From Natronospira bacteriovora (GTDB lineage Bacteria > Pseudomonadota > Gammaproteobacteria > Natronospirales > Natronospiraceae), in assembly GCF_030848495.1 (NCBI RefSeq), contig NZ_JAVDDT010000003.1, forward strand, positions 1 to 64,000: a stretch of DNA of 64,000 bases, given 5' to 3'. Both the position numbers and the translations under genes were made by a program. Position 1 is the first letter of the stretch, and each line of letters opens with the position of its first letter. A model generated the notes under the pieces. That model searched no databases. It was not told where the DNA came from and was given only the letters and a program-made list of their open reading frames with translations. Shown here piece after piece: positions 7,623-62,487 of the stretch.

Positions 7623-9023
7623 TCAGTAATGCCGGGCTCCGAAGACAAAGCCAAACTGCAGATAGCCGGCGACCTCGTTGTCATTGCCGGCCACGCCCAC
7701 GTCGAACTGCAAGGGCCCGGGCGAGAGTCCGAAACCGACTGAGGCCACATCATCGATCAGGTCCGAGGAAGCCAGATTGAAGCGGTAACCGGCCCGGAGG
7801 TGAAGCCAGGAAAGGGGGTGAAGTTCACCGCCGAGCGCCAGAAAGCGGGTCTCGGGACCAAAGCCCATGGGTCTGTTCTCGGTCAGATCCAGATCCGCCG
7901 CCAGGGTGTAGAAACGCCGGTCGTAGCTCACCCCCACCCGAACCTGCGGCTCCAGACGAATCTCATTGCCCTCCACGGTGCCATAGCTTTGCGACAGAAG
8001 GTTGCGGATACTGGCCCCGATCCGCAGCTGCTCGGTGATGGGCATGGCGAAGCCGAGATCCAGGTTCACATTGCTGTGGGTCTGCTCCCGATCTTCAATA
8101 TCCACATCGTCCTCGTCCTGCACCCGGACGATGTAATCATAGGTACTGACTTCCACCTGCTTGGGCGTGAAGCCGACGGCCAGGGTGCGCCCGCCGACAT
8201 TGAAATCCCTGGCCAGCGTCAGACCGAACTCACTCAGCACCGCGCCCTGAAACTGGAACTCCGAGAGGAAGTTGTCAGCCGTCTGTTCATCCGGCAAATC
8301 GAGATCACGACATTCCTGCAGGCGCTGATCGTCCACACCATTGCCATCGGCCGCATCTTCAAGGCAGCCAACAATCCCGGCCGCTTCACCAAAAACCGAG
8401 TCCACGAGATCAAAATCCGCGTCATCCAGCAGGAAAGCCCCGCCCCCGTAGGCGCGGGACTGATAATGCAGGCCGGTACCCCAGCTGCCGATCCGGGTCC
8501 CGAACGCACCGGAGCCGCGCAATTCAAAGGTGACCGGTTTATCGGACATGTTACCCACCAGCTCCTTGAGCTCCTCACGGGTCATGTCCACCACGTTCAA
8601 ATCCTGTGAGAGAAGGTCAATATCAGCCTGAAGTTCATCACTGGTGTTGTACTCGTCATTGTCGATCCGGGTTCGGATCATGCCGAAAGTATCGTTGAAG
8701 GCGCGCAGATCCACCTCGATGCGATCGACGATGTTGGAGTCATCGAACTCATCGAATGCATCAATGAACTCCTCGCGATCCGCGACAGAGCCCCCGACGG
8801 TGGCGAGAGTGATGCCCGTGCTGTAACGACGAAGCCTGGGTGAAGCAAGAGCCGGATTGTAAAGTACCGAATTGGGTCCATGTGCCGTCGCCGTGGAGGC
8901 TCCACCCATGGAAAGCGCCCTGGGATCCGAAGGAAGGTAGGGTTCAGCCAGGGAAACGGCCGGAATTGCCAAGCATGTGGCTGTGGCGAGCAAGACAGCG
9001 GAACGGGCTTTCATGGCACACAT
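7623..9023 (-). CDS. TraF-type outer-membrane beta-barrel protein
   Basis: The 466-aa exported protein has a signal peptide (residues about 4-26, ending VSLAEP). It then has the block DPRALSMGGASTATAHGPNSVLYNPA, seen in TraF_2/PorV-like outer-membrane proteins often annotated as conjugal transfer TraF. The C-terminal half alternates short beta strands (GVSYDRRFYTLAADLDL, HLRAGYRFNL) and ends in a beta-signal-like FGFVFGARHY. GGAG at 7 nt supports the ATG at 9023. No other conjugation genes are nearby, so a role in DNA transfer is not implied. Function unknown. Confidence 0.7.
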   Translation of the reverse strand: MCAMKARSAVLLATATCLAIPAVSLAEPYLPSDPRALSMGGASTATAHGPNSVLYNPALASPRLRRYSTGITLATVGGSVADREEFIDAFDEFDDSNIVDRIEVDLRAFNDTFGMIRTRIDNDEYNTSDELQADIDLLSQDLNVVDMTREELKELVGNMSDKPVTFELRGSGAFGTRIGSWGTGLHYQSRAYGGGAFLLDDADFDLVDSVFGEAAGIVGCLEDAADGNGVDDQRLQECRDLDLPDEQTADNFLSEFQFQGAVLSEFGLTLARDFNVGGRTLAVGFTPKQVEVSTYDYIVRVQDEDDVDIEDREQTHSNVNLDLGFAMPITEQLRIGASIRNLLSQSYGTVEGNEIRLEPQVRVGVSYDRRFYTLAADLDLTENRPMGFGPETRFLALGGELHPLSWLHLRAGYRFNLASSDLIDDVASVGFGLSPGPLQFDVGVAGNDNEVAGYLQFGFVFGARHY

Positions 9024-9142
9024 ATCCGGGCTCCATTGATGCTACATAAGGTGAATCGTATCTCAATTATGGCAACTCTTGCGCAGAAAGGAATGGGCAG
9101 GTGATGGGCGGCGTCGACGCATCGACCGCCGGGAGGGAATGC

Positions 9143-24892: not shown

Positions 24893-25939
24893 ATGGATCA
24901 ACTCGAGATTACCCGGCCGGACGACTGGCATCTGCATGTGCGTGATGGTGAGGCCATGAAGGCCGTGGTACCGGAAACCGCTCGCATCTTTGGCCGTGCC
25001 ATCATCATGCCCAACCTGCAGCCACCCATCACCACGGTGGAACAGGCCGAGGCCTACAGGGACCGCATTCTCGCCGCGACACCGTCAGACAGCGGCTTTC
25101 GCCCGCTGTTGACGCTCTACCTCACGGACAACACCAGCGAGGAAACTGTCAGGGCGGCGGCCGATCATCCCGATATTCATGCCTTCAAGCTGTATCCGGC
25201 CGGTGCCACCACCAATTCGGATTCCGGTGTCACCGATATCCGGCATGTGCGCCCGGCCCTGGATGCCATGGCCGATTACGACATTCCCCTGCTGGTGCAT
25301 GGGGAAGTCACACGACATGAAGTGGATTTTTTTGATCGCGAGAAGCGGTTCATCGATGAAGTGCTCAGCCGGGTGGTGGAAGACTTCGCGCCCCTGAGGG
25401 TGGTCTTCGAGCACATCACCACGCGGGAAGCGGTGGAGTTCGTTGAATCCGCGCCGTTGCGGGTCGGGGCCACCATCACTCCCCAGCATCTCCTGGAAAA
25501 CCGCAACGCACTCTTTCGGGGCGGGCTGCGTCCTCATCATTTCTGCCTGCCGGTACTGAAACGGGAGGAAGACCGTCGCGCCCTGGTCAGTGCCGCCACC
25601 GGTGGCTCTCCCAAATTCTTCCTTGGGACGGACAGTGCGCCACATCCGAAGGGCGCCAAGGAATCAGCCTGTGGCTGCGCCGGCATCTACTCGGCACATA
25701 CCGCCCTGGAACTTTACGCGGAAGTCTTCGACCGGGCCGGGAAACTCGAGAATCTGGAAGCCTTCGCCAGTTTCAACGGCGCGGATTTCTACGGTCTGCC
25801 CCGGAACAAGGGCTCGGTTCGTCTGGAGCGCAAGGACAAGAGTGTTCCGGATCAGCTGCCCATGGGTGGAAAGGAAATCGTCATTCCTTTCCGTGCTGGC
25901 GAAAGTGTGGCCTGGACCTCAAGCCGACTGGAGCCCTGA
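24893..25939 (+). CDS. pyrC: Dihydroorotase (class II)
   Basis: Third step of pyrimidine synthesis: cyclises carbamoyl aspartate to dihydroorotate with a zinc pair. The 348-aa product starts [19 protein letters not shown]. This carries the first metal motif [31 protein letters not shown] (carboxylated Lys), [18 protein letters not shown] and LGTDSAPHP complete the site. The ATG at 24893 is the family start. rnt overlaps its stop by one base. Confidence 0.97.
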
Positions 25940-26586
25940 TGAGCGAGGAACAACGACTGGAAAACAACGGCCCACGCATTGCCGACCGCTTTCGCAGCTT
26001 TCTCCCGGTGGTGGTGGATGTGGAGACCGGCGGCTTCAACCCCGCCACCGATGCCCTGCTGGAAATCGCCGGCGTGCTGCTGCACATGAACGACGAAGGG
26101 GAGCTCTATCGGGGCGAGACCTACCGCTACCACGTGCGGCCGTTTCCAGGCGCGAACATCGAGCCGGCGGCACTGGAAGTCACCGGCATCGACCCGGATC
26201 ATCCCCTTCGCCCGGCCATGGATGAACGGGACGCCCTCGGCCGACTTTTCAAGCAGGTTCGCGGCCAGGTCAAGGAAACCGGCTGCACCCGGGCCATCCT
26301 GGTGGGGCACAACAGCTGGTTCGACCTGCAGTTCATGAATGCCGCCGTGGAACGGGCCGGCATCAAGCGCAACCCTTTCCATCCCTTCTCAAGTTTCGAC
26401 ACCGCCACCCTGGGTGGCGTAGCCTTTGGGCAGACGGTTCTGCGCAGAGCCGCCCATGCCGCCGGTCTGAGCTGGGATGAGAGCGCCGCCCATTCGGCGG
26501 CCTACGATGCCGAACAAACGGCGGAACTGTTCTGCCAAATCGTCAATCGATTTCGCGATCAGTACGAAGAAGCCATTGGCAACTAG
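25939..26586 (+). CDS. rnt: Ribonuclease T
   Basis: DEDD-family 3'-5' exonuclease that trims tRNA and other stable RNA ends. The 215-aa product has the ExoI motif VVVDVETGGFN, ExoII around GHNSWFDLQFMN, and ExoIII HSAAYDAEQTAELF with the catalytic His. The start overlaps the pyrC stop (TGATG), indicating translational coupling. pyrC-rnt pairing is common in Pseudomonas-like genomes. Confidence 0.95.
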   Translation: MSEEQRLENNGPRIADRFRSFLPVVVDVETGGFNPATDALLEIAGVLLHMNDEGELYRGETYRYHVRPFPGANIEPAALEVTGIDPDHPLRPAMDERDALGRLFKQVRGQVKETGCTRAILVGHNSWFDLQFMNAAVERAGIKRNPFHPFSSFDTATLGGVAFGQTVLRRAAHAAGLSWDESAAHSAAYDAEQTAELFCQIVNRFRDQYEEAIGN

Positions 26587-56915: not shown

Positions 56916-57182
56916 TTGGCTAACATCAAGTCCGCAAAGAAGCGCGCCCGCCAGTCGGAAGAGCGTCGCAAGCACAACGCCAGCATGCGCTCTGCCATGC
57001 GCACCGGTCTCAAGAAGGTCCTCAAGGCCATCGACGCCGGCGACAAGGCCAAGGCCGAAGAAGCCTACAAGGCAGCCATCCCCTATCTGGATCGCATGGC
57101 TACCCGGGGCATCATCAAGAAGAACAAGGCTGCTCGCCACAAGAGCCGCCTGAATGCCCGCATCAAGGAAATGGCTTCCTGA
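56916..57182 (+). CDS. rpsT: 30S ribosomal protein S20, TTG start
   Basis: The 88-aa product reads [20 protein letters not shown] onward with the family's Lys-rich helices. The initiator is TTG with AGGAGC before it; E. coli rpsT also uses a UUG start tied to autoregulation. It is monocistronic with a clear promoter and terminator. Confidence 0.97.
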
Positions 57183-57199
57183 GCCAGTTCTGATCCGAG

Positions 57200-57219
57200 C
57201 GAACGAAAAAGGCCGGTCA
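57200..57219 (+). repeat. Left 20-bp direct repeat of the island
   Basis: This 20-bp sequence, in the rpsT terminator, is identical in the same orientation to 61066-61085 in the purA terminator. The two bracket the nucleotidyltransferase-WYL-cas3-CRISPR segment. Confidence 0.7.
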
Positions 57220-57236
57220 TCTGACCGGCCTTTTTT
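57206..57236 (+). terminator. Terminator of rpsT
   Basis: The stem AAAGGCCGGTC/GACCGGCCTTT with a short ATCT loop is followed by a T-run. Confidence 0.92.
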
Positions 57237-57253
57237 GTTGTATTCTGAATGCC

Positions 57254-57766
57254 ATGCGCCTGCACAGCTTCGAAGCCATCATCACCGCCCTGAACAGGGC
57301 GAATGTCCGCTACCTGGTGGCGGGAGGTCTGGCCGTGAATGCTCATGGCTACCTGCGTTACACCAAAGACGCGGATCTGGTTATCGAATTGGTGCCTGAA
57401 AACATTCTCGCCGCTTTGCAGGCGTTAAAAGACCTCGACTATCGCCCCACCATACCGGTTCGAGCTGAAGATTTCGCAGACCGCAAAACCCGTGAAAGGT
57501 GGGCACGGGACAAGGGAATGAAGGTATTTCAGCTATTCAGCGATACCCATCCGGAAACCCCCATCGATATTTTTGTCGAACACCCCTTCGATTTTCCGCA
57601 AGAATACGACCGAGCCCTGACAGAAACCCTGATTCCCGGGGTCAAAGCCCCCTTCACCGCTCTGGACACATTGATCACCATGAAGGAGGCAGTTGGTCGA
57701 CCCCGCGACCTAGATGATGTGGAGCACCTGCGCATTCTTCGCGACCAGAGTGCAGAAGAGGAGTAG
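57254..57766 (+). CDS. Nucleotidyltransferase-fold protein
   Basis: The 170-aa product has the pattern RANVRYLVAGGLAVNAHGYLRYTKDADLVIEL, with a GG(x9-10)DxD-like catalytic site as in AbiEii/MNT-type nucleotidyltransferases, then FVEHPFDF and LITMKEAVGRPRDLDDVEHLR. Such proteins are often toxins or toxin modifiers paired with a small partner gene. The 63-aa gene begins 6 bp after its stop. No ribosome site is seen before the ATG, and the rpsT terminator is just upstream. Confidence 0.78.
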   Translation: MRLHSFEAIITALNRANVRYLVAGGLAVNAHGYLRYTKDADLVIELVPENILAALQALKDLDYRPTIPVRAEDFADRKTRERWARDKGMKVFQLFSDTHPETPIDIFVEHPFDFPQEYDRALTETLIPGVKAPFTALDTLITMKEAVGRPRDLDDVEHLRILRDQSAEEE

Positions 57767-57771
57767 TAATC

Positions 57772-57963
57772 ATGTCACCGCCCGAAGATGAAATCGATTG
57801 GAGCAAGACCACTTGGGACGGTGCGCGCCGAGAGCAATTGTATCGCTGGCGCAAACTGAGCCTGTACGAAAAGATGCGTGCTGTCGAGGAAATGGGTGTT
57901 TTGGCCGAACGATTTGCCCAGAATCGAGAACGGCGTGGCCAGCGCACCATTAAGCCGGAGTAA
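57772..57963 (+). CDS. Small partner of the nucleotidyltransferase, unknown function
   Basis: The 63-aa charged, helical protein begins MSPPEDEIDWSKTTWDG and continues LYRWRKLSLYEKMRAVEEMG. GGAG precedes the ATG by 8 nt. Its length, charge and 6-bp spacing suggest a functional pair with the gene before it (antitoxin or accessory), but no known antitoxin motif is recognised. Confidence 0.65.
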   Translation: MSPPEDEIDWSKTTWDGARREQLYRWRKLSLYEKMRAVEEMGVLAERFAQNRERRGQRTIKPE

Positions 57964-58072
57964 CTCCAGCTTCAGCCAGAATCACCCGCGCCACCCTCCT
58001 GTCTCACCCACCTTGAAACACCACCCCCATCGTCTATGCTGAACAGGGCAGACCGCCAAAGCATGGACGCTG

Positions 58073-59080
58073 ATGAATCGTTTTGAACGCCTGATCAAGA
58101 TCCACCGCCTCCTCGACAGCCCCCGGCCCGTGCCTGTCGAGCGCTTTCGCACGGAACTGGAATGCTCCCGGGCCACCCTCTTCCGGGATTTCGAATACCT
58201 CAGGGATTTCCTCGGCGCCCCCATCATCTGCACCCGGCACGAGGACGGCCACTACGGCCACCATTACGACCCCTACGAACCCCGTTTCGAACTACCCGGT
58301 CTCTGGCTCAACGCCTCCGAACTCCACGGCCTGCTTGCCACCGAGCAGCTCCTGGAGGCCATCCAGCCTGGCCTGCTCAAACCCTATATCGGGCCCCTGA
58401 AAACACGCATCCGCCAACTCCTCGGCCAGAGCGGCATCGACGCCGAAGCGCTTGGGCAACGCATCCAGATCCGCCAGATCGCCCACCGCAACACCGAATC
58501 GGACGCCTTCGGCCGGATCGCCGAAGCCGTCCTCCGCCGCCGACAGCTACGCTTTGAATACCGCTCCCGCAGCCAGGACGAAAACCGCCCGCGCCACACC
58601 GACCCCCAGCGCCTCATCCACTACCGAAACAACTGGTACCTGGCAGCAAACTGCCACCAGGCTGGCGGCCTCCGCCTGTTCTCCCTGGACCGCATCCGCA
58701 ACCCGGAAATCCAGACCCAAACCGCCCGAGACCTACCCGAAAAACAACTCGACCGGCAACTGGAAGGCAATTTCGGCATCTTCACCGGCCCCGCCGAACA
58801 CTGGGCCGTGCTCCGCTTCACCTCCGAAGCCGCCCGCTGGGCCGCCGAACAAACCTGGCATCCCGACCAGATCGGGCAGTGGAAGGATGGGGAATACGAA
58901 CTTCAAGTGCCCTACGGCGAACCGACGGAGTTGACCCGGGAGATCCTCGCCTGGGGACCGGACGTATGGGTCGTGGCACCCAGTCGTCTGCGAAACGCAA
59001 TCAAGAGACAGCACGAATTGGCGGCAGCCCAATACCGTAAGAATCCAGATGACTTGCAAGATTGCAGTTGCAATCAGTGA
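58073..59080 (+). CDS. WYL-domain transcription regulator
   Basis: The 335-aa product has an N-terminal helix-turn-helix (RLIKIHRLLDSPRPVPVERF then ECSRATLFRDFEYLRDFLG). A WYL domain follows (PQRLIHYRNNWYLAANCHQ) with a C-terminal WCX extension ending WVVAPSRLRNAIKRQHELAAAQY. WYL proteins often regulate CRISPR and other defence loci. The next gene, 47 bp away, is a cas3 remnant, so a link is likely. The C terminus carries two extra cysteines. Confidence 0.88.
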   Translation: MNRFERLIKIHRLLDSPRPVPVERFRTELECSRATLFRDFEYLRDFLGAPIICTRHEDGHYGHHYDPYEPRFELPGLWLNASELHGLLATEQLLEAIQPGLLKPYIGPLKTRIRQLLGQSGIDAEALGQRIQIRQIAHRNTESDAFGRIAEAVLRRRQLRFEYRSRSQDENRPRHTDPQRLIHYRNNWYLAANCHQAGGLRLFSLDRIRNPEIQTQTARDLPEKQLDRQLEGNFGIFTGPAEHWAVLRFTSEAARWAAEQTWHPDQIGQWKDGEYELQVPYGEPTELTREILAWGPDVWVVAPSRLRNAIKRQHELAAAQYRKNPDDLQDCSCNQ

Positions 59081-59127: not shown

Positions 59128-60684
59128 GTGAAAGACTTCGAAACCTTCTTCCGCCAGGCCACGGGGCTCCCGGCGCCCTACCCTTACCAAAAACGCCTGG
59201 CAGAAAATGAATGGCCCGAAGTGCTGGATATTCCAACCGGCCTTGGCAAGACTGCAGCGGTAACACTGGCCTGGGCCTGGCGACGTCGGGAAAAGGGCGC
59301 CACGGACATGCCCCGGCGGCTCGTCTGGTGTCTGCCCATGCGTGTACTGGTGGAACAGACCCATCGGAATATTCGTGAATGGCTGGCTGCACTTGACCTG
59401 CTGGGTGAGCCGGGTGAAGGCAAGATCTCCACGCACCTTTTGATGGGCGGTGAACCATCCCTTCGCAGTGCGTCGTGGGCCTCTTTCCCCGAGGAAGAAG
59501 CCATCCTGATCGGCACACAGGACATGCTCCTGTCCCGAGCACTGATGCGCGGTTATGGCATGAGCCGCTACCAGTGGCCCGTGCATTTCGGCCTGCTCCA
59601 CAACGACGCCCTATGGGTGTATGACGAAATCCAGCTCATGGGTGCCGCCCTGCCCACCTCCACCCAACTGGAGGGCTTTCGCCGCACGCTGCGAACCCAA
59701 CGCCCCACCCGCAGCCTGTGGGCCTCTGCCACCCTGCATCGGGATTGGCTGGATACCGTGGACTTTCGGTCGCATCTGGAAACGCTGGACTGGCTATCAC
59801 TCAACGACGATGACCGCCGGCATGCTCAGGTCACCCGGCGTCTTGCGGCGAAAAAGAAACTTCAGCCCGCCCAGACGCGGCTAACGGCAGACAACCGCAA
59901 ATCGAAAGCGGCCGCCTATATCAAGGGGCTGGCACAGGAAATCCTGGAAGCGCATCAGCCGGGCTCCCAGACACTGGTCATCCTGAACCGGGTCGAGCGT
60001 GCCCAGGCACTCCACGCCGCCCTGGCCAAGCAAATGGAGACGGCACCGCTGCTCCTGCACGCTCGCTTCAGACGCCCGGAGAGGGACGAGATCGAGGCGG
60101 CCATTCGCGCCGATACGCCCGCCGAGGGGCGCATCATCGTAGCCACCCAGGCAGTGGAGGCCGGCGTGGATATTTCCAGCCGGGTCATGTTCACCGAACT
60201 CGCACCCTGGTCATCCCTGGTTCAGCGCTTTGGCCGCTGCAATCGCAGCGGAGAACATCCGGAGGCGGCAATTTACTGGATCGACATCGAAGAAGAGAGC
60301 AAGGAGGCCCTGCCCTACGAGATGGAGGATCTACTGGCCGCTCGAGAGCAGTTGTCCACCATCGAATCCGCCAGCCCCGGCGACCTGCCAGCGGTGGATG
60401 CCGCCACCGGCCTTCGCCGCGTCATCCGCCGCCGGGATCTGATCGACCTGTTCAACACGGACCCGGACCTCAGCGGCTTTGACGTGGACATATCGGCCTA
60501 TATCCGTGACCCGGGCCAGGCCCAGTCCCAGGTCTTCTGGCGAGACTTCGAGGACGATCCCGGTGAGCAGGCAGCCCGTTATCCGAGGCATCCTGCCTCG
60601 GCCTCATTGAAGCGCGCGGGGTGGTGGACTTTGCCGACATGCTCGACGAGGGTTATCCGAGGCATCCTGCCTCGGCCTCATTGA
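59128..60684 (+). CDS. cas3: Truncated Cas3-type helicase running into a CRISPR array
   Basis: Superfamily 2 helicase of a type I CRISPR system. The order helicase-first resembles type I-G (formerly I-U), in which the HD nuclease is C-terminal. Walker A is in DIPTGLGKTAAV (about 34-45), the DEAH-type box reads YDEIQLMG (about 164), and motif VI is QRFGRCNRSGE (about 365-375). After FWRDFEDDPGEQAAR (to about residue 484) the frame enters CRISPR repeat 1 and continues through spacer 1. It stops at a TGA inside repeat 2, so the last 34 residues are CRISPR-encoded. The HD domain is missing and the product is probably inactive. GTG start with AGGGAG. Confidence 0.85.
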   Translation: MKDFETFFRQATGLPAPYPYQKRLAENEWPEVLDIPTGLGKTAAVTLAWAWRRREKGATDMPRRLVWCLPMRVLVEQTHRNIREWLAALDLLGEPGEGKISTHLLMGGEPSLRSASWASFPEEEAILIGTQDMLLSRALMRGYGMSRYQWPVHFGLLHNDALWVYDEIQLMGAALPTSTQLEGFRRTLRTQRPTRSLWASATLHRDWLDTVDFRSHLETLDWLSLNDDDRRHAQVTRRLAAKKKLQPAQTRLTADNRKSKAAAYIKGLAQEILEAHQPGSQTLVILNRVERAQALHAALAKQMETAPLLLHARFRRPERDEIEAAIRADTPAEGRIIVATQAVEAGVDISSRVMFTELAPWSSLVQRFGRCNRSGEHPEAAIYWIDIEEESKEALPYEMEDLLAAREQLSTIESASPGDLPAVDAATGLRRVIRRRDLIDLFNTDPDLSGFDVDISAYIRDPGQAQSQVFWRDFEDDPGEQAARYPRHPASASLKRAGWWTLPTCSTRVIRGILPRPH

Positions 60685-60981
60685 AGCTCAGTCATTGATG
60701 CCGCAGAGGCCGCGGATCACGGCCTCGTTATCCGAGGCATCCTGCCTCGGCCTCATTGAAGCGCGCTGGCGGGCGGCACGGCCCTCGCCGGCATCACGGG
60801 TTATCCGAGGCATCCTACCTCGGCCTCATTGAAGCGCGGTCAGCAGGAATCGGTCGTTATCGTCTCTGCCAAGTTATCCGAGGCATCCTGCCTCGGCCTC
60901 ATTGAAGCGAGAACGTACCCCGGATCGCCCACCGTGGCCGCCAGCGTTATCCGAGGCATCCTGCCTCGGCCTCATTGAAGC
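60578..60981 (+). CRISPR. CRISPR array, six repeats and five spacers
   Basis: A 36-nt repeat beginning GTTATCCGAGG and ending CCTCATTGAAGC, with an internal palindrome CCGAGGCA/TGCCTCGG. Copies are at 60578, 60652, 60727, 60800, 60873 and 60946. Spacers are 38, 39, 37, 37 and 37 nt. Repeat 4 has one change (G to A in the right half of the palindrome). The ATTGAAGC end places the repeat 3' end on the right, in the cas3 direction. No leader stands before repeat 1 because the cas3 coding sequence abuts it. No degenerate trailer repeat is seen. Confidence 0.97.
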
Positions 60982-61065
60982 ATTTCAAATCTGGTGTGAC
61001 TTTTGAGATGTTCACGGCGATCTACCTGAATTGAAGGCATATGGTTTGGGCTTGTCTCAAGCCAA

Positions 61066-61085
61066 CGAACGAAAAAGGCCGGTCA
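61066..61085 (+). repeat. Right 20-bp direct repeat of the island
   Basis: Identical to 57200-57219; it forms the left part of the purA terminator stem. Confidence 0.7.
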
Positions 61086-61105
61086 ACCGACCGGCCTTTT
61101 TCGTT
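61068..61105 (-). terminator. Terminator of purA (bidirectional)
   Basis: A 17-bp perfect stem AACGAAAAAGGCCGGTC with its complement around an AACC loop. The - strand reads a T-run through it. Between the CRISPR end (60982) and this site no gene or cas remnant is seen. Confidence 0.88.

Positions 61106-61146: not shown

Positions 61147-62487
<1,341 letters not shown>

Follow-up and report, generated by a model that had tools for sequence, protein, structure and literature searches.

The window, a 64,000-nt stretch of the Natronospira bacteriovora genome (contig NZ_JAVDDT010000003.1, positions 1 to 64,000), contains a type I-G cas3 gene (cas3g) whose coding sequence runs directly into a CRISPR array. 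The explanation that best accounts for the whole, to which we assign a probability of about 0.7, is that an ancestral type I-G locus underwent one deletion, that the remnant is inert, and that the joint is tied to spacer insertion. What is new is the presence of two more joints between a cas gene and a repeat edge among about 40 I-G carriers, one in cas3g (genome G005) and one in cas7 (genome G506). The interest lies in this recurrence, which yields a testable statement on CRISPR loss. The features of the window locus are as follows.

56916..57182, plus strand: rpsT (ribosomal protein S20), left flank; open reading frame, named from its sequence
57254..57766, plus strand: DUF6036 nucleotidyltransferase-like gene (PF19502, E 4e-6), within an insert common to the sister genome G001
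58073..59080, plus strand: WYL-domain regulator of the CRISPR locus (PF13280, PF25583 and PDLC01457, CRISPR-associated WYL)
59128..60577, plus strand: cas3g codons 1-483 and base 1 of codon 484 (TIGR02621, PDLC01770)
60577..60578, no strand: deletion joint between cas3g and CRISPR repeat base 1, placed by sequence, repeats and the intact sister, which continues ...EQPAPTREELCPVG
60578..60684, plus strand: cas3 frame continuing across repeat 1 and spacer 1 into repeat 2, where it stops, with the tail RYPRHPASASLKR...
60578..60981, plus strand: leaderless CRISPR array of six 36-nt repeats GTTATCCGAGGCATCCTGCCTCGGCCTCATTGAAGC, by repeat comparison
61064..61105, no strand: terminator-like inverted repeat at the right edge of the insert, from sequence
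61147..62439, minus strand: purA, right flank; open reading frame with an orthologue in G001 and in the second congener G002

The gene order on the plus strand of the window includes a small ORF between the DUF6036 gene and the WYL regulator. The inverted repeat at 61064-61105 is a near-copy of the rpsT terminator at 57200-57240, and a minus-strand terminator is called at 61092-61077. The entire insert is bracketed by these near-identical terminator-like elements (57200-57240 and 61064-61105), and G002 has a single such element; the CRISPR locus may have entered, or have undergone duplication, around a terminator.

Truncated cas3g and the joint

The open reading frame at 59128-60684 has a GTG start and encodes 518 aa. 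It remains open across the joint and stops within repeat 2. It matches profile TIGR02621 with an E value of 5e-168 and 561 bits (cut-off 400) over profile positions 1-495 of 854, and a second profile, PDLC01770, is also matched. Judged by these matches, positions 59128-60577 encode the N-terminal part of a type I-G Cas3, 483 codons in length. The first ~60% of the gene is kept at the joint and both RecA-like domains are intact (DEAD at residues 33-206, Helicase_C at 270-375), with the helicase motifs GLGKT at 38, YDEIQ at 165, SAT at 200 and QRFGRCNR at 366. The C-terminal part with the HD domain is missing, and the profile match stops at 495/854. Full-length Cas3g relatives have 797-836 aa, and Cas3_HD lies at residues 608-827 in an Ectothiorhodospira homologue. 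The family alignment also rules out a natural end of Cas3g at the joint position, as intact relatives run to 797-836 aa. The last 35 residues of the 518-aa “Cas3” are spelled by CRISPR DNA and are not to be annotated as a domain.

The original prediction had placed the end of the intact helicase frame at 60577, with the next base being base 1 of a repeat, and had the frame pass through repeat 1 and spacer 1 and stop inside repeat 2; every coordinate checked agrees. Position 60578, directly after the last cas3g base, opens a perfect 36-nt repeat. At this point the Cas3g family alignment reads EQ-x-x-P-(S/T)-R-x-E-L-C, and the window reads EQ-A-A, then C, then the repeat. A proline codon is expected here, and this C matches its first position. 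Plausibly, then, native cas3 sequence reaches right to the repeat, and the joint is likely to be sharp to the base, as far as can be read from the alignment. Known I-G leaders mostly end G-rich, e.g., in GGGGCT, and the bases that precede the repeat in the window differ from these. A comparison of the bases left of the joint with known leader and spacer ends showed microhomology of at most 2 nt. All three joints discussed here have the motif CAGC a short way upstream of the repeat, but it was set aside as a post hoc observation that is not typical of I-G leader ends.

Comparison of cas3g in the window with that of the sister genome gives a dN of 0.037, a dS of 0.53 and a dN/dS of about 0.07, and polarised replacements number seven on the window lineage and seven on the sister lineage. 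The gene has been under normal, strong constraint for nearly all its history, and the deletion is consequently recent. Recency is also marked by the intact cas3g frame and by the five of six repeats that are perfect. These constraint figures speak of past selection, and present selection does not follow from them. In a small Cas3g tree, built from the smaller set of sequences after a larger one with wrongly oriented rows was left out, the window and the sister are paired (100/100), and G005 and G506 are not joined to the window.

Divergence from the sister is uneven. The dS of cas3g (0.53, window 59128-60576 vs L037) is lower than that of purA (0.83) and of hisZ (1.16), and within cas3g it is 0.98 in the first third and 0.30-0.47 in the remainder. 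The unevenness suggests mosaic exchange at the locus after the species split.

The CRISPR array

Repeats start at 60578, 60652, 60727, 60800, 60873 and 60946. The prediction of five perfect repeats out of six was correct, the fourth having one mismatch. The five spacers are of 38, 39, 37, 37 and 37 nt. The repeat folds into a hairpin and has the ATTGAAGC 3′ end of other I-G repeats; a 36-nt repeat, a 7-8 bp hairpin, a ...GGCCTCATTGAAGC end and spacers within 34-42 nt are the characters of a type I-G array, and the window array shows each of them. The leader is absent, with 0 nt between cas3g and the repeat vs about 220 nt from cas2 to the repeat in the sister genome.

No further copy of the window repeat is present elsewhere in the genome assembly, and none was found in viral contigs. 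A comparison of the five window spacers and ten sister spacers with 50,697 phage records gave no match, and viral contigs contained none of the core patterns of three spacers. Spacer 3 matches part of G001 contig C18 at 91%, but this was rejected as its source, as it has seven mismatches and lies inside a chromosomal oxygenase-like gene. A search for Cas3g on plasmids returned one distant match only.

What was lost

The sister genome, a Natronospira MAG, has an orthologous cas3g that is intact beyond the joint point. Its Cas3g reads ...WRDFEDDPGEQPAPTREELCPVG..., and the window reads ...WRDFEDDPGEQAA, then the repeat. The sister contig stops about 85 codons past the joint point. Two other sister contigs (C73 and C45) carry cas7 (PF09617), Csb2 (TIGR02165), a MazF-like gene, a Cas4g/Cas1g fusion (NF049935) and cas2, and in addition an array preceded by a leader of about 220 nt, and an array end followed by purA. 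The sister repeat equals that of the window except for base 1. The left flank from rpsT to the WYL gene corresponds between the two genomes, with an 81% match over window 56916-58088. In G002, rpsT is directly beside purA, i.e., the site is empty. Because the sister keeps the locus at the same site and the second congener has an empty one, the comparison indicates that a full I-G locus once stood between rpsT and purA and that a single deletion took its middle. Two intact I-G loci have 8,757 and 9,615 bases between the equivalent point and their first repeat, so the deletion would have been of roughly 9-10 kb if little of the array was lost.

Sequences homologous to the lost genes were sought in the organism's own genome (2.998 Mb in 15 contigs, 97% complete). 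There was no match to Cas1 (PF01867), for which control genomes matched, and none to Cas7 and Csb2, both of which matched in the sister. The original prediction, that the C-terminal HD domain, the effector and adaptation genes and the leader are gone through one deletion with an endpoint at the array edge, is borne out by the intact sister locus and the empty site. Two of its proposed checks gave results: the locus in a relative shows what was deleted, and the search for a second array or cas genes in the same genome found no repeat copy, Cas1, Cas7 or Csb2.

The sister has peculiarities of its own. Its WYL gene seems to be without about 190 bp at the 5′ end (L037, about 8300-9117); matches to window 58088 and 58282 meet at that point. 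On C73, its first array passes into unrelated sequence resembling an inserted element, and contig C22 (L073) carries another I-G-like locus, whose 35 repeats are of a different sequence, GTATCCGCGTTCTCACGAACGCGGCCCCATTGAAGC.

State of the remnant

The type I-G system (formerly I-U) of Thioalkalivibrio sulfidiphilus HL-EbGr7 (PMC9638904) is a close known likeness. It is alike in the Cas3g helicase, in the 36-nt hairpin repeat and in the 8-nt handle-type 3′ end ATTGAAGC, and the toxin-antitoxin genes that it has between csb2 and cas4-1 are also found in the sister locus. In contrast, the window Cas3g is cut before the HD domain, and cas7, csb2, cas4-1, cas2 and the leader are gone. In I-G systems Cas3 joins the effector only with Cas8g, and Csb2 processes crRNA (PMC9638904); neither the helicase nor the array is thus expected to work. 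With the HD domain, the effector and adaptation partners, the leader and the processing enzyme gone, the helicase remnant and the array are most likely both inert. The best reading is of a dead remnant rather than a working helicase-array fusion; taken as a fusion protein, it is a product of ordinary decay. A function for the remnant, be it as the nuclease-less helicase of the earlier suggestion, finds no support, as there is no Cascade or HD partner and the array is without Csb2. Of the proposed RNA run-on from cas3 into the array, the sense orientation stands, and transcription itself can only be presumed.

An orphan array with a lost cas operon is known from Lactobacillus acidophilus NCFM (cited in PMC6990116). 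The window locus is alike in the kept array and the lost operon, but differs in having a cas reading frame joined straight to the edge of a repeat without a leader, as do two other I-G loci.

Other broken type I-G loci

Cas3g was searched in three samples, consisting of 369 genomes of the class, 398 of the phylum and 385 of a second class. About 40 genomes are I-G carriers; most have a full-length Cas3g, and some are contig-cut or frameshifted. Besides the window, two deletion-broken loci still adjoin an array, G005 and G506. Both were chosen for a short Cas3g, irrespective of the repeat.

In G005 (same order, other family) cas3g is cut at about its own codon 311, which corresponds to about residue 293 of the window protein. 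The joint (G005:C2, about 34999) reads ...VERAQQ+C, GAGCGCGCACAGCAAC then ATTTCCGGAGCAAATTTGCTCCGGCCTCATTGAAGC, at 0-1 nt from the repeat, and, as in the window, the base adjoining the repeat is the one with which the next native codon would be expected to begin. G506 (other class, complete one-contig genome) has cas7 ending ...RDEY + AGCCTTT, then GCATCCGAGG... (G506:C1, about 1418173). Its array has 32 repeats and the joint is within 7 nt of a repeat start; the AGCCTTT between the cas7 homology and the repeat does not look like native cas7. Since the sister of the window is intact and the breakpoints differ, the sequences indicate that the window event is independent of G005 and G506. If endpoints are uniform over a 73-nt unit, the chance of both edge joints is about 0.003, with tolerances that are post hoc; the recurrence argues mildly against chance.

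A fourth remnant, in G557, has a broken cas3g without an array. It is a cas3g 5′ remnant at C52, about 25748-25996 (L143; profile 2-89), close to a tRNA-like sequence. The cas3g frame of G506, 709 aa (L144), is seemingly fused within the HD region to a possible Cas8g C-terminus, which may represent a second internal deletion of that locus. In G191, a short cas7 5′ fragment (profile 4-36; G191:C297:19948-20037) lies just upstream of cas3g, and a full cas7 is present separately.

As a control, 5,395 E. coli genomes match the I-E region; the few losses that were opened were IS-linked or had lost the array as well. In the E. coli B strain C3029, IS421 is in place of the cas genes, close to the first remaining repeat (L212, about 2200-2330). 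In the literature, of which coverage was partial, no published reports of such deletions at a cas/repeat edge were found.

Possible origins of the joint

As the comparison shows, the ancestor had, between rpsT and purA, the order WYL, cas3g, (cas8g), cas7, csb2, cas4-1, cas2, leader and array, and one deletion of roughly 9-10 kb joined cas3g codon 483/484 to a repeat 5′ edge. Cas1-Cas2 cuts and joins strands precisely where leader and repeat meet, attaching a 3′ end to the 5′ end of the repeat. If that 3′ end lay in cis, in the nearby cas3g, resolution would delete the DNA between. Joining in cis can be likened to adjacent deletion by a transposase, and the strand polarity of the observed joint fits. 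In vitro, Cas1-Cas2 mainly yields one-ended insertions at the leader-repeat junction (PMC8390005); a replicative route with flanking DNA still attached has been proposed (PMC8390005). The same phosphodiester border serves for strand joining in that integration, but it was observed in vitro with short protospacers, and no chromosomal adjacent deletion is reported in the literature searched. That the window joint was made by Cas1-Cas2 strand transfer is quite possible, at somewhat below even chances; the joint sits at a repeat 5′ edge, and that repeat may have been the leader-proximal one. There are three events only, G506 has seven nucleotides of unexplained origin, and other routes can end near a repeat, as in the IS-linked loss of E. 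coli B. The broader proposal is that Cas1-Cas2 can attach a cas gene with a break or nick, in cis, to the leader-repeat border, so that the locus deletes itself: operon and leader would go at once, a cas frame would be left at the first repeat, and such joints would arise repeatedly and independently, as in the window, G005 and G506. We regard this as rather unlikely. Repeat or adaptation activity, the cause suggested in the prediction, is plausible, and the joints in G005 and G506 lend it some added weight.

An ordinary illegitimate deletion in a decaying locus that ended at a repeat edge by chance is a doubtful but reasonable alternative. CRISPR loci are often lost, the I-G remnant without an array in G557 being a case, and for one event to fall at a repeat start the probability is ~2/73, in a case that drew attention by being striking. 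However, G005 and G506, picked regardless of the repeat, also end 0-7 nt from a repeat start. Recombination with a self-derived spacer of ~37 nt from cas3g, deleting everything between, would have produced a leaderless cas/repeat border as in the three loci, and would also cure lethal self-targeting; self-targeting and cas operon loss are documented (PMC6990116). The I-G PAM is TTN (PMC9638904), and in G506 a TTC stands directly upstream of the 37 nt that abut the repeat, with 36-37 nt being the commonest spacer length there. In the window, however, TTN is found only at 40 nt, and spacers of at least 40 nt make up 2.5% of 323 I-G spacers. G005 has no TTN at 33-43 nt, the last bases before the G506 repeat are unlike native cas7, and among the I-G arrays compared with the locus they belong to, none had a cas-matching spacer. 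We judge this route rather improbable. Cas1-Cas2 strand transfer and recombination with a cas-derived spacer would both suit joints at a repeat edge, and the evidence does not separate these two routes and chance.

CRISPR repeats are known to cause misjoins, and two distant loci might have been joined artificially at the repeat. Yet the assembly has no copy of the repeat outside this array and none of the missing genes, the rpsT and purA flanks are in ancestral order on a 372-kb contig, and a similar joint is present in the one-contig G506, so that an assembly artefact is very improbable. An equally slight chance is given to a selected new function, in which a nuclease-less Cas3 helicase with the array on its mRNA would act as a regulator or an RNA-making unit. 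Both RecA-like domains and the helicase motifs are intact, the array is sense-oriented, and there is one promoter-like site upstream of the WYL gene, where 0.7 are expected by chance; against this, Csb2 and Cas7 are absent and the intact frame is explained by recency.

Implications

The loss of CRISPR-Cas systems is common and is usually put down to selection and random deletion. Having both an intact sister and a congener with the empty site makes the window locus a clean example. Clustering of endpoints at repeat edges can be tested by endpoint counts in public genomes and by an adaptation assay. If array endpoints do cluster there, the adaptation machinery would be a source of its own loss.
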